Positions 4,918-33,819 of a stretch of DNA of 64,000 nt are shown piece by piece. The stretch's first letter is position 1; each line of letters starts with the position of its first letter. Both the position numbers and the translations under genes were made by a program. Source of the DNA: Halopelagius longus (GTDB lineage: Archaea; Halobacteriota; Halobacteria; Halobacteriales; Haloferacaceae); the NCBI RefSeq assembly GCF_900100875.1, contig NZ_FNKQ01000002.1, positions 372,001 to 436,000 of the forward strand. The letters run 5' to 3'. Below the pieces are notes generated by a model. The model made no database searches. It was not told the origin of the DNA and saw nothing but the letters and a program-made list of their open reading frames with translations.

Positions 4918-6624
4918 ATGCGCGACTGGCTCTCTCACCGGGTCCGAGCGTCGCCGGACGCGACGGCCCTGATACTCGCTTCGACGGGGGAATCGTGGAC
5001 CTTCGCGGAGCTCGATTCGATGGTCGAGGAGACGGCGGCCCGCCTCGCCGCACTCGGCGTCGAGTCGGGCGACCACCTCGGCGTCGTCATGGAGACGCGA
5101 GTCGCATACGTCCGATTGCTTCACGCCGCGATGCGCCTCGGGGTGACGCTGGTGCCGATGGGCGACGGGCTGACGGCGGGCGAACTCCGGTCGCAGGCGG
5201 AGACGGCGGACGTCACCGCCGTCGTCTGCGGGTCGGCCACGGAGGGCCGGGCCGTCGAGGCGGCGGGAGAGGCGCCGGTCGTCAGCGTGGACCCGCCCGC
5301 GACGGACGAGGTCAGCGCCCTCGAAGACGCCTCGCCCGAGAGCTTCGAACCCGCGTCGTGGGAACTCGACGACGCGCAACTGCTGCTTTTCACCTCCGGG
5401 ACGACGGGCGACCCGAAGGCCGTCACCCTCACGACTTTGAATCTGCTTTCGAGCGCCGTCGCCTCGGCGTTCCGACTCGGATTCGACCCGGCCGACAGGT
5501 GGTTGGTGGCGCTTTCGCTGCACCACATGGGCGGCATCGCGCCCGTGCTTCGGATGCCGCTCTACGGGATGACCGTCGTCCTCAGACCGGAGTTTCGGGC
5601 CGGACCGACGGCCGACGACATCGAACGCCACGAGGTGACCGCCGTCTCTCTGGTCCCGACGATGCTCCGCCGGATGTTGGAGAAGCGCGGAACGCTCTCG
5701 GAGTCGCTCAGGGTCGTCCTCCTCGGCGGCGCGCCCGCGTCGGCGGAGTTGATAGAGCGGTGTCGGAACTACTCCGTCCCCGTCTACCCGACGTACGGGA
5801 TGACAGAAACCGCCTCCCAGATAGCCACGGCGCGCCCGAAGGAGGCGTTCCGGAACGTCGGAACCGTGGGTCGGCCCCTCTACTGGACGGACCTCACCGT
5901 CGTAGACGAGTCGGGCGCCCCCGTCGAACGCGGCGAGACGGGCGAACTCGTCGTCTCGGGGCCGACGGTCACGCCGGGGTACTACGGCGACGAGGCGGCG
6001 ACGACCGAGGCGTTCTGCGAGTACGGCCTGAAGACGGGCGACGCGGGCTACCTCGACGCCGAGGGGCGACTGTACGTGCTCAACCGGGTGGACGACCGAA
6101 TCATCACCGGCGGCGAGAACGTCGAACCCGGCGAGGTGGTCGACGTCCTCCGCTCGCACCCCGACGTTCGCGACGCCGCCGTCGTCGGCGTCCCCGACCC
6201 CGAGTGGGGCGAACGCGTCGGCGCACTCGTCGTCCGCGACTCCGAGGAACTGACGCGGGACGGCGTAGAGGAGTACGCCCGCGAACGACTCGCGGGGTTC
6301 AAACTGCCCCGAATCGTCGCGTTCGCCGACGAACTACCCCGAACCGTCTCGGGGACGGTGAAGCGCGACGCCGTCCGCGAACGACTCGAAGCGGTCGCGG
6401 AGGACGAAGACGAAGAGACGGACGAACCGGACGACGAAACGGCGAACGGAGAATCGGAGGACGAAGACGAAGCGCCAGAGGGCGACGAATCGGACGACGA
6501 ACCGACGGACGAATCCGACGACGGAGACGAGGAATCCGACGACGGAGACGAGGATTATGAAGTACGGGACGAGGAGTCCGACGACTCACCGGACGGCGAC
6601 GCGCCCGCGGACGCGACGGAGTGA
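4918..6624 (+). CDS. AMP-forming acyl-CoA ligase, MenE-like, with long acidic tail
   Basis: A 568-residue member of the adenylate-forming superfamily. The ATP-binding loop TSGTTGDPK is at 159-167, YGMTETASQ near 295, the hinge DRIITGGENV near 390, and the catalytic lysine lies in SGTVKRDAVR near 480. The body most resembles o-succinylbenzoate-CoA ligase (menaquinone synthesis), but no other men genes are present. Neighbours are propionate and fatty-acid enzymes, so another acyl substrate is possible. After residue 495 there is a roughly 70-residue Asp/Glu-rich low-complexity tail (repeated DDGDEESDD-like units) that the family normally lacks. Confidence 0.75.
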   Translation: MRDWLSHRVRASPDATALILASTGESWTFAELDSMVEETAARLAALGVESGDHLGVVMETRVAYVRLLHAAMRLGVTLVPMGDGLTAGELRSQAETADVTAVVCGSATEGRAVEAAGEAPVVSVDPPATDEVSALEDASPESFEPASWELDDAQLLLFTSGTTGDPKAVTLTTLNLLSSAVASAFRLGFDPADRWLVALSLHHMGGIAPVLRMPLYGMTVVLRPEFRAGPTADDIERHEVTAVSLVPTMLRRMLEKRGTLSESLRVVLLGGAPASAELIERCRNYSVPVYPTYGMTETASQIATARPKEAFRNVGTVGRPLYWTDLTVVDESGAPVERGETGELVVSGPTVTPGYYGDEAATTEAFCEYGLKTGDAGYLDAEGRLYVLNRVDDRIITGGENVEPGEVVDVLRSHPDVRDAAVVGVPDPEWGERVGALVVRDSEELTRDGVEEYARERLAGFKLPRIVAFADELPRTVSGTVKRDAVRERLEAVAEDEDEETDEPDDETANGESEDEDEAPEGDESDDEPTDESDDGDEESDDGDEDYEVRDEESDDSPDGDAPADATE

Positions 6625-30952: not shown

Positions 30953-32002
30953 ATGTCGCCGAAAATTCTGATGCTCGGATGGGGGTTCCCTCCGAACGTG
31001 AGTGGCGGACTCGACACCCACGTCGGAGAGTTGTTCGACGGTCTGCAGGCGAGAGGAACCGACATCGAGTTGGTGCTCCCCGCCGAGTACGCGCCGGAGG
31101 ACCGCGAGGGAATCGTCGGCGTTCCGACCGGCGACGGCGACATCATCACCCGCATCGGCCGTCTCAGTTCGACCTTCGCCGAACGCGCCGAGGACGCGGA
31201 CATCGTCCACACCCACGACTGGTTCGGCTACGGCCCGGGTTCGCGCGCGAACTCCAACGACGACGCCGACGTGGAGTGGGTGACGACGTTTCACTCGCTG
31301 TCGTCGGACCGGAACATCGACCCGCCGAAACGGGAGAAGGAGACCGAACGGCGCGTCGTGGACCGCTGTGACCACCTACTCGCGGTGAGCGAACTCCTCG
31401 CGAACAAGGTCGACGAGGAGTACGGGCGGAAGCCGGAGGTCATCTACAACGGCTTCTCCACCGTCGAGACGACCGGACGCGACCTGAAGGAGGAACTCGG
31501 CATCGACGGTCACATGGTGTTCTTCGTGGGGCGACACACGGACCAGAAGGGAATCGCCCACCTCGTCTACGCCCTCGACAGACTCCGCCGCGACGACGTG
31601 ACCCTCGTGATGGGCGGGTCCGGCCACCTCACGGACCAACTGAAGCGGTTCGCGGAACTGCTGGGCGTCGAAGACCGGATAGAGTGGGTGGGCTACGTCC
31701 CCGAGGAGGAACTCGGCGACTACTACGCCTCGGCGGACCTGTTCGTCTCGCCCTCCCTGTCGGAACCGTTCGGCATCACCATCGTCGAAGCCCTCTCCGT
31801 GGGGACGCGCGTCGTCGCCACCGAGAGCGGTGCCGCGGAGGTGCTACCGGACGACTGCGTCATCGAGGTGGACCCCGACTCCCGGTCCATCGCCGAGGGC
31901 ATCGAGTACGGCCTCTCGTTGGAGGGGCCGCCGGAGTACGAACCGCTGACGTGGGACGAAGTGGTGGACCAGACCGTCGAGTTCTACGAGCGAATCGCCT
32001 GA
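30953..32002 (+). CDS. GT4-family glycosyltransferase
   Basis: A 349-residue GT-B enzyme. It begins with the glycogen-synthase-like Gly-rich loop (LGWGFPPNVSGGLDTHV). HTHDWFG (about 83-89) lies in the N-terminal domain. The C-terminal donor-binding domain has FFVGRHTDQKG and the E-x7-E motif in EPFGITIVEAL. Sugar donor and acceptor are unknown; roles in glycogen-like polymer, glycolipid or exopolysaccharide synthesis are possible. It has a strong leaderless promoter and no glycan-pathway neighbours. Confidence 0.85.
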   Translation: MSPKILMLGWGFPPNVSGGLDTHVGELFDGLQARGTDIELVLPAEYAPEDREGIVGVPTGDGDIITRIGRLSSTFAERAEDADIVHTHDWFGYGPGSRANSNDDADVEWVTTFHSLSSDRNIDPPKREKETERRVVDRCDHLLAVSELLANKVDEEYGRKPEVIYNGFSTVETTGRDLKEELGIDGHMVFFVGRHTDQKGIAHLVYALDRLRRDDVTLVMGGSGHLTDQLKRFAELLGVEDRIEWVGYVPEEELGDYYASADLFVSPSLSEPFGITIVEALSVGTRVVATESGAAEVLPDDCVIEVDPDSRSIAEGIEYGLSLEGPPEYEPLTWDEVVDQTVEFYERIA

Positions 32003-32006
32003 GGGG

Positions 32007-32453
32007 TCACCGCAGGACGCGAACGTCCGTCACGGGTTCGGGGTGGCGGATGCGGTAGCCGTCCGAAGTCGGAACGAGGCCCTCGCTGGGGAGAGTCTGC
32101 CGCGCGGGTTGGTACGGACTGTCCGAGTCCGCAGACTGGTACGGGCTGTCGGACTCCGCGGACTGATAGGGGCTGTCGGAACTCACCGATTGGTAGGGGC
32201 TGTCCGACTGCGCCGACTGGTACGGGCTGTCCGAACTCGCCGACTGGTGGGGACTGTCGTCGCGTTCGCGCGCGCCCCGTCGGAAGTCCTCCGGCGGCAG
32301 GTAGATTCGCTCGCCGGACTCCGAACGGACGATGACCGCGGTGTCCCTGTCGCCGCGCATCGTTATCTCCGTCGTCCCGTCCTCGATGTTGACGGTGAAC
32401 GTGACGGACTCCTCGTCGTCGTCGCCCTCGCCCTCGTCGGGTGACGCTGTCAT
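32007..32453 (-). CDS. Hypothetical protein with Ser-Pro-Tyr nonapeptide repeats
   Basis: A 148-residue protein. The N-terminal 60 residues form a beta-rich segment (VTFTVNIEDGTTEITMRG, AVIVRSESGERIYLPPED), which looks conserved-like. Residues about 66-118 are six copies of a nine-residue unit with consensus DSPYQSAxS, first copy DSPHQSAS. The end is PTSDGYRIRHPEPVTDVRV. I do not recognise a function. It converges on the glycosyltransferase (4-base gap) and is divergent from rpa. A TTAGCA/TGCTAAG box lies 30 bases upstream of the start. Confidence 0.72.
   Translation of the reverse strand: MTASPDEGEGDDDEESVTFTVNIEDGTTEITMRGDRDTAVIVRSESGERIYLPPEDFRRGARERDDSPHQSASSDSPYQSAQSDSPYQSVSSDSPYQSAESDSPYQSADSDSPYQPARQTLPSEGLVPTSDGYRIRHPEPVTDVRVLR
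32116..32262. repeat. 27-base tandem repeat inside the Ser-Pro-Tyr repeat gene
   Basis: Units of 27 bases start at 32116, 32143, 32170, 32197, 32224 and 32251 (the last partial); each begins with a form of GGGCTGTCCGA. They code on the minus strand for the DSPYQSAxS units. Copies differ by several silent and replacement changes. Confidence 0.8.
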
Positions 32454-32547: not shown

Positions 32548-33819
32548 ATGGACGTAGACGACCATGCCGAGGAACTCGCCTCCACCCTCGGCGTAGACAA
32601 AGCGGAGGTCAAATCCGACCTACAGAACCTGTTAGAGTACAGCGTCCCGATAGACGAGGCGAAACAGAGCATCCGGCGCAAGCACGGCGGCGGCGACGGC
32701 GGCGGGAGTTCGCCCGCCTCGAAGGACGTGGCGGACATCACCACCGAGGACGGCAACGTCACCGTCACCGTGCGCGTGTTGACCGTCGGCCGACGCTCGA
32801 TTCGCTATCAGGGCGAAGAACAGACCATCCGAGAGGGCGAACTCGCGGACGAGACGGGGAAGATATCCTACACCGCGTGGGAGGACTTCGGCTTCGAAGC
32901 CGGCGACTCCGTCACCGTCGGCAACGCCGGCGTCCGCGAGTGGGACGGCGAACCGGAACTGAACCTCGGTTCCAGTTCCACCGTCGCCGTCGAGACGACG
33001 CCCGTCGAGACGCCGTACGAGGTGGGCGGCGAAACCGACCTCGTGGACGTCCGCGCGGGCGACCGCGGCCGGACCGTGGAGGTTCGCGTCCTCGAATCCG
33101 AGGAACGGACCATCGACGGCCGCAACGGCGAGACGCTCATCCGGTCGGGCGTCGTGGCAGACGAGACGGGCCGCCTCCCCTTCACCGACTGGGGCGCGCG
33201 CTCGGACCTGCGGGAGGGCGCGGACCTGCGGTTCGAGGACGTGTACGCCCGCGAGTTCCGCGGCGTCCCCCAAGTCAACCTCTCGGAGTTCACCACCGTC
33301 ACGCCGTTGGGCCGCGACGTCGAAGTCAACGAGTCGGCCCCGCGGATGAAAATCGGCGAGGCCGTCGGGTCCGGCGGGATGTTCGACGTGGAGGTGACCG
33401 GTAACCTGCTGGAAGTCCGCGACGGGTCCGGCCTCATCGAACGCTGTCCCGACTGCGGGCGCGTCCTCCAGAACGGCCAGTGTCGCTCCCACGGCGACGT
33501 CGAGGGCGAGGACGACATGCGCGTGAAGGCCATCCTCGACGACGGCACCGGCACCGTCACCGTCGTCTTAGACCGAGAGTTGACCGAGACGCTGTACGGC
33601 GGCACGATGGAAGAGGCGATGGAACAGGCCCGCGAGGCGATGGACAAGGAAGTCGTCGCCGACGACATCCGCGACGCCGTCGTCGGGCGGGAGTTCCGCG
33701 TCCGCGGCAACCTCTCGGTGGACGACTACGGCGCGAACCTCGAAGCCACCGAGTTCGAGGAGACGGACGAGGACCCCGCAGACCGTGCGGCCGCCCTCCG
33801 CGAGGAGGTGGGCGCATGA
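32548..33819 (+). CDS. rpa1: Replication protein A (RPA), single-stranded DNA-binding
   Basis: A 423-residue RPA with a short N-terminal helical segment (1-55), three predicted OB folds (about 60-155, 165-260, 270-400) and a zinc motif CPDCGRVLQNGQCRSHG within the third. It binds single-stranded DNA in replication and repair. The gene order rpa, rpa-associated protein, phosphoesterase is the same as the rpa1-rpap1-rpe operon known in Haloferax volcanii. Its stop overlaps the next gene's ATG (ATGA), so the operon is translationally coupled. Confidence 0.92.
   Translation: MDVDDHAEELASTLGVDKAEVKSDLQNLLEYSVPIDEAKQSIRRKHGGGDGGGSSPASKDVADITTEDGNVTVTVRVLTVGRRSIRYQGEEQTIREGELADETGKISYTAWEDFGFEAGDSVTVGNAGVREWDGEPELNLGSSSTVAVETTPVETPYEVGGETDLVDVRAGDRGRTVEVRVLESEERTIDGRNGETLIRSGVVADETGRLPFTDWGARSDLREGADLRFEDVYAREFRGVPQVNLSEFTTVTPLGRDVEVNESAPRMKIGEAVGSGGMFDVEVTGNLLEVRDGSGLIERCPDCGRVLQNGQCRSHGDVEGEDDMRVKAILDDGTGTVTVVLDRELTETLYGGTMEEAMEQAREAMDKEVVADDIRDAVVGREFRVRGNLSVDDYGANLEATEFEETDEDPADRAAALREEVGA

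Follow-up and report, generated by a model that had tools for sequence, protein, structure and literature searches.

At positions 32007-32453 of the window, by which we mean the whole stretch of 64,000 nucleotides from Halopelagius longus analyzed here, a short minus-strand gene encodes a protein with a tandem Ser-Pro-Tyr repeat and lies divergent from rpa. The locus raises the question of whether this protein serves replication or transcription, as could be read from an earlier note on this DNA that placed the gene next to the RPA operon and likened its repeats to the tail of RNA polymerase II, whether the repeats are functionless, or whether the gene has another partner altogether. The open reading frame starts with ATG and comprises the following parts.

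32007-32453, minus strand: DUF7510 (PF24350) protein, open reading frame of 148 residues; member of the family by Pfam (E value 1.1e-46, 157.9 bits against a cut-off of 27).
32301-32405, minus strand: N-terminal half of the folded core (residues ~17-51, ending ...GERIY); AlphaFold2 strands with high pLDDT, invariant columns in the 45- and 57-member alignments.
32097-32258, minus strand: six 27-base units of the form D-S-P-[Y/H]-Q-x-x-x-x, the disordered arm with its Tyr motifs; frame reading, Tandem Repeats Finder and a pLDDT of ~51.
32013-32084, minus strand: C-terminal half of the folded core (residues ~124-147, within GLVPTSDGYRIRHPEPVTDVRVL); AlphaFold2 strands, invariant columns in the 45- and 57-member alignments.

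The Ser-Pro-Tyr nonapeptide protein announced in the earlier note is real, since the 148-residue gene holds six 27-base units, all in frame. Read frame by frame on the minus strand, these are, in order, DSPHQSASS, DSPYQSAQS, DSPYQSVSS, DSPYQSAES, DSPYQSADS and DSPYQPARQ. Five units thus carry DSPYQ and one DSPHQ; the number given in the note was correct, and its consensus DSPYQSAxS needs amending for the first unit, which has His in place of Tyr, and for the last, which diverges after DSPYQ. Tandem Repeats Finder detected the 27-base period at 32110-32258 (5.5 copies, score 154, 76% matches). The coding pattern D-x-P-Y-Q occurs 11 times in the host genome; five matches are these units, and the other six are singletons. 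The Pfam match to DUF7510 is broken into two segments by an arm longer than that of the model, and no NCBIfam model matched the 148-residue protein. A separate tandem array, GAC/GAA-rich and with units of 21, 27 and 63 bases, was seen at 6398-6585, far from the DUF7510 gene.

We modeled the protein with AlphaFold2 from an alignment of 57 sequences, in which the row of the window begins at 32450, so that the initiator Met is missing from the model. The N- and C-terminal parts came together in a compact beta domain with 48 residues at a pLDDT of at least 90, and the same strands were predicted for a short version from Haloarcula. The repeats, at a pLDDT of ~51, lie between the folded halves, so that the arm is predicted to be a long disordered insertion, in agreement with the disordered character proposed earlier. 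The core is predicted to be a small Ig-like beta-sandwich with the repeats inserted between its two halves. VIA-align matched the core to Ig-like domains at a Z of 5-6 (best 5.5 and 5.9), cytokine/interferon receptors and designed or de novo proteins equally among them; we claim no fold family, because these values lie in the range that the tool calls common. The carbohydrate-binding modules 6a6c, 2cwr and 5dhe were among the nearest folds, weakly and unspecifically: the CBM56 structure 6a6c scored a Z of 5.1-5.5 (rmsd 2.4, 61 aligned), level with interferon receptors. The best Foldseek E value was 0.25. When solved relatives were sought by sequence, the profile retrieved two matches (E 0.78-0.87) and the single protein retrieved none; a PHROGs search returned no viral relative.

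A perfect 27-base period invites the explanation that the repeats are a neutral product of slippage without function. The sister species G063 carries five units against six here, and the difference is exactly one nine-residue unit, in frame. Slippage in copy number, which the earlier note had thought possible between strains, is therefore supported between species only, by an in-frame step of one unit. The substitution pattern runs against neutrality. Between two species of the same genus (g1), the repeat region gave a dS of 1.02 and a dN of 0.069 (dN/dS 0.067, compared with 0.148 for the N-terminal core), and among the six units within the gene the differences were mostly synonymous (dS 1.33, dN 0.19); the values come from simple Nei-Gojobori-type counting over short segments (43, 45 and 29 codons), and only their direction is to be trusted. 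The repeats are under strong purifying selection. The high dS and low dN indicate that the units either are of long standing or change quickly at silent positions, while their protein sequence is maintained. In addition, the motif persists in 27 genera with spacers that differ by lineage, and none of the 130 arms compared is free of Tyr. On the dN/dS values and the conservation of the motif we rejected neutral expansion, to which we give next to no likelihood. As a separate observation, the last 29 codons of the gene (32010-32096, minus strand) showed a pS of 0.16 against the sister species (L002), compared with 0.52-0.56 elsewhere, possibly because a signal near the ends of the convergent genes is constrained and possibly by chance.

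DUF7510 was found in 153 of 391 Halobacteria genomes, and a single-protein search found it in 135 of the 170 genomes of the taxonomic family. Among 90 genomes drawn from the phylum there were six matches, all in the order of the window. Haloferax volcanii, included as a control genome, has a match to the family. For comparison we used 130 loci, one per genome, made up of the best-scoring matches plus nearly all other genera, 27 genera in all; the large genus g21 was represented by 11 genomes only, and G058, G096 and G158, for example, were left out. Alignments were made on subsets of 45, 57 and 49 sequences, and N-termini are approximate, start codons having been picked by rule.

The linkers of these 130 loci hold 551 tyrosines, 473 of them in the motif [ST]PY. 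This is not chance, because 200 shuffles gave a mean of 17.7 and a maximum of 27. An acidic residue stands within three positions before 423 of the 473 motifs. Where the Pro is lost, leaving S-A or S-S, the Tyr is kept (43 of the 551 cases), and no other residue of the motif is replaced less readily. Exact SPY occurs 0 to 8 times per arm at a spacing of 4-42 residues, and arms with zero exact SPY carry T-P-Y or S-x-Y forms. Nine-residue arrays differ by lineage (SPYQSAxSD here, SPYEGIPND in Halorhabdus), and such lineage-specific spacers suggest repeated expansion of one core motif. Relatives across 27 genera thus retain the motif, rather than lacking the repeats or carrying broken frames as the earlier note would have expected of a neutral array; one fragment row among those listed (G109) showed an internal stop, and the same gene was intact in the class-wide search. 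The repeats could be modification or binding sites, as had been suspected from the window alone. Two side observations concern the arms and their records. Arms in genus g55 (L114, L120, L127, L128) are long and acidic and abound in Thr/Ser; they hold few SPY, and SPYS replaces SPYQ. Two records named Halobellus captivus have very different DUF7510 proteins, that of ZY8 (L193, NZ_RDQE01000005.1) being of the Halorubrum type and that of ZY21 (L141) of the Halobellus type; the name of the ZY8 record may be wrong.

We then considered the divergent neighbor.

32548-33819, plus strand: RPA (PRK07218), divergent neighbor, judged to lie outside the system; NCBIfam NF005554 at 651.9 bits, adjacent in 57 of 130 loci only.

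The spacing of about 95 bases reported for the two genes is accurate, the gap to the rpa start being 94 bases. Downstream of RPA follow a further same-strand open reading frame to 35726, a phosphoesterase-like gene and an Lhr-like helicase. A regulator linked to RPA or to transcription, with a repeat like the RNA polymerase II tail, would draw on this adjacency, which recurs within 1 kb in 13 of the 27 genera, all of one family; three more loci (g5, g11) have RPA 1.5 to 3.1 kb away, outside the 1-kb count. However, RPA is universal (391/391 genomes) and DUF7510 is not, 14 of the 27 genera have no RPA adjacency, and we saw no link to RNA polymerase. We therefore rejected the RPA link on synteny and phyletic pattern and regard such a regulator as very improbable. 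The C-terminal tail of RNA polymerase II is built of YSPTSPS heptads, which terminate the largest subunit. Like the DUF7510 arm, it is a disordered, Ser/Pro/Tyr-rich tandem repeat. Unlike it, the DUF7510 unit is a nine-residue DSPYQSAxS, which stands off the polymerase, on a separate 148-residue protein and in other genomic company. With a period of nine rather than seven and no fusion to RNA polymerase, the identity with this tail was also rejected.

The gene on the other side of DUF7510 proved to be a far more constant companion.

30953-32002, plus strand: GT4 glycosyltransferase, tail-to-tail partner; Pfam Glycos_transf_1 at 1.4e-29, best NCBIfam model glgA_Coryne at 1.6e-26, below its cut-off.

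Its stop codon ends 4 bases before that of DUF7510. Pfam and NCBIfam scans, run on 31058-32002 with the first 35 residues omitted, detected PF00534 (1.4e-29) and PF13439 (1.7e-14), which places the enzyme in the GT1/GT4 class. Its sequence contains the stretch EPFGITIVE, which we take to be the E-x7-E motif of the retaining GT4 class. Against the model for GlgA/GlgM-type glycogen synthase (TIGR02149), the enzyme scored 93.3 bits and its Haloarcula ortholog 97.8, below the cut-off of 302.4. A convergent GT4 was present within 1.5 kb in 124 of the 130 loci and in 26 of the 27 genera; in 113 of these 124 it lay within 150 bases, with a median gap of 52.5 bases as judged from tblastn ends. Moreover, the genomes with DUF7510 and those with the GT4 at E<=1e-70 were the same 153 of 391. 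This threshold is not arbitrary, because in 26 genomes negative for DUF7510, searched for the GT4 at E 0.001, the best match was 2e-32 or weaker, one of them having none. Genera g34, g44, g49 and g61 each include genomes with both genes and genomes with neither, and gains or losses were therefore concordant. In g23 the two genes are apart and both retained; in G160 of this genus, the GT4 is at 1734167 and DUF7510 at 1903435, ~170 kb away and beside MalA at 1903906. Correlation of distances did not discriminate between the neighbors (partial r of the DUF7510 core 0.50 with the GT4 and 0.38 with RPA).

Further evidence on the pathway came from the surroundings of the pair, which we compared in 30 loci, the annotation covering some of the conserved clusters. 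Loci without RPA had, in varying combinations, a 1,500-residue GH15 + Glucodextran_N protein, MalA (NF041321, 988 bits against a cut-off of 875), a GH77 4-alpha-glucanotransferase and a sugar nucleotidyltransferase; Halobellus-type loci (g19) depart from this pattern, with neither RPA nor alpha-glucan enzymes next door. A Halarchaeum plasmid shows the order GH15, malA, DUF7510 (annotated as hypothetical), a small hypothetical gene, GT4 and malQ, and a plasmid of Haloarcula rara has GH15, DUF7510, GT4 and GH77 within 20 kb. The small gene on the Halarchaeum plasmid (L215:12478-12987, plus strand) encodes a hypothetical protein of ~169 residues with a hydrophobic N-terminus.

The full-length GH15 pair was present in 33 of 37 DUF7510-positive genomes (G110 being counted though in two pieces; G219, G275, G283 and G320 lack it) compared with 4 of 35 negative ones. 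MalA exceeded its cut-off in 154 of 391 genomes, and among the matches listed it did so without DUF7510 in G004, G005, G284 and G324. The sugar nucleotidyltransferase was found in 72 of 72 genomes, and its co-occurrence is therefore uninformative. The genome from which the window comes carries genes for the GH15 double-domain protein and for MalA divergently side by side at C2:21200-27908, on the same contig as the DUF7510-GT4 pair and ~375 kb from it. DUF7510 and the GT4 thus belong to an alpha-glucan gene module. The MalA of Haloarcula japonica is described as cytosolic (PMC7490331) and as acting on amylose and starch and less on glycogen (PMC7490331, PMC11239784), and an NDP-sugar pyrophosphorylase of the same species is said to make GDP-glucose (PMC11046441). 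Halophilic archaea are stated to prefer PHA over glycogen (PMC8116748).

We thus propose that DUF7510 is probably a dedicated, non-catalytic partner of the GT4, which would build an intracellular glycogen-like alpha-glucan in haloarchaea. The Ig-like core would form a fixed platform, probably a binding surface for the GT4 or the glucan, and the flexible arm would present a variable number of acidic-S/T-P-Y motifs, whose tyrosines would be engaged by the GT4 or by the growing glucan. The physical contact between the two proteins, the reaction and its product are the parts of this proposal that we infer. Several points speak against this proposal: the glycogen-synthase match of the GT4 is far below the cut-off (93 vs 302 bits), MalA and GH15 are imperfectly tied to DUF7510, the correlation of distances did not single out the GT4, the fold matches of the core are weak and unspecific, and halophilic archaea are said to favor PHA.

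As a non-covalent scaffold, DUF7510 would bind glucan through its core, in the manner of a carbohydrate-binding module, and its Tyr motifs would each offer a docking point to the GT4 (or amylase), so that several enzyme molecules would be concentrated on the particle and the tyrosines would never bear sugar. Docking would be well served by short multivalent motifs that vary in number (up to 8 SPY) and in spacing (4-42 residues), and the nearest folds include the three carbohydrate-binding modules 6a6c, 2cwr and 5dhe, although at a Z of 5-6 these are tied with interferon receptors and de novo proteins. A mere scaffold would, however, be expected to be lost at times while the enzyme stays, and a genome with the GT4 only was seen in 0 of 153 cases. 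This obligate pairing suggests that DUF7510 is a substrate or a subunit and not a scaffold that could be dispensed with, and we rate the scaffold as rather unlikely. Less likely again is a phospho-switch, in which the motif would be a kinase site and phosphorylation of its Ser or Tyr would control the GT4 or MalA. The acidic residue before the S in 423 of 473 motifs and the conserved S/T-P-Y core do resemble a kinase consensus; yet the annotated conserved clusters of the 30 neighborhoods contained no kinase gene, and Ser-Pro becomes S-A or S-S before a retained Tyr in 43 of 551 cases. A search of the open-licence PMC literature found no phosphopeptide data, none of the 20 matches listed being a haloarchaeal study.

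Returning to the partner of an alpha-glucan-building GT4, many freely spaced motifs with an ever-present Tyr would fit independent acceptor or docking points. We tentatively consider the arm tyrosines as covalent acceptors; we give such use a slight edge over non-covalent docking, on the grounds that the pairing is obligate and that Tyr is the part of the motif hardest to replace. In a bolder and somewhat more doubtful form, DUF7510 would be an independently evolved archaeal counterpart of glycogenin, a non-catalytic primer whose S/T-P-Y tyrosines are glucosylated by the GT4. Each Tyr would then start one alpha-glucan chain, and lineages would tune the number of chains by gaining or losing nine-residue units.

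Glycogenin is the self-glucosylating GT8 primer of eukaryotic glycogen. The likeness would be one of working only, both being proteins with tyrosine acceptors that accompany a glycogen synthase; unlike glycogenin, DUF7510 has many tyrosines on a disordered arm, and its partner would be a GT4. A Pfam scan for a GT8 or other catalytic domain, with E values up to 1 admitted, returned only DUF7510 and a weak match to SPATA3, and DUF7510 is therefore not a glycogenin but at most works like one. Serine-rich-repeat adhesins are secreted bacterial proteins that GtfA/GtfB glycosylate with GlcNAc on Ser/Thr. They too pair a disordered repeat protein with a GT4-type enzyme, but the DUF7510 module looks intracellular and its conserved residue is Tyr. 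Among other archaea, Methanoculleus and Picrophilus have uncharacterized GT4 genes within their glycogen clusters; a 2024 review suspects that the Methanoculleus enzyme is a glycogen synthase (PMC11046441). As in the haloarchaeal pair, a GT4 stands beside alpha-glucan enzymes in an archaeon, but the review's account of these clusters describes no DUF7510-like partner.

PF24350 is a family known by name only, and its tie to a GT4 and to alpha-glucan is new here. DUF7510 is named in no open-licence PMC full text, and a phrase search of the same texts found no Ser-Pro-Tyr repeat proteins in Halobacteria. In Haloferax volcanii, we infer that HVO_1339 is DUF7510 and HVO_1340 the GT4, flanked by HVO_1341, which is arfC (PMC8305020); the first two appear in no main text of open-licence PMC papers.

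How prokaryotes, which lack glycogenin, initiate a glycogen chain is a standing question. According to the 2024 review, glycogen-storing bacteria have yielded no homologue of glycogenin and the haloarchaeal synthase is not yet characterized; the review also asks whether archaea have glycogenin-like proteins (PMC11046441). Because that question has been posed, the pair deserves direct testing in Haloferax volcanii: the GT4 and the Tyr-repeat protein offer a concrete two-gene candidate, the DUF7510 half of which is present in this genetically tractable species. Overall, a misleading link to replication and transcription is replaced, and a Pfam family of unknown function is assigned to a pathway, in which it would probably assist the making of alpha-glucan in haloarchaea.
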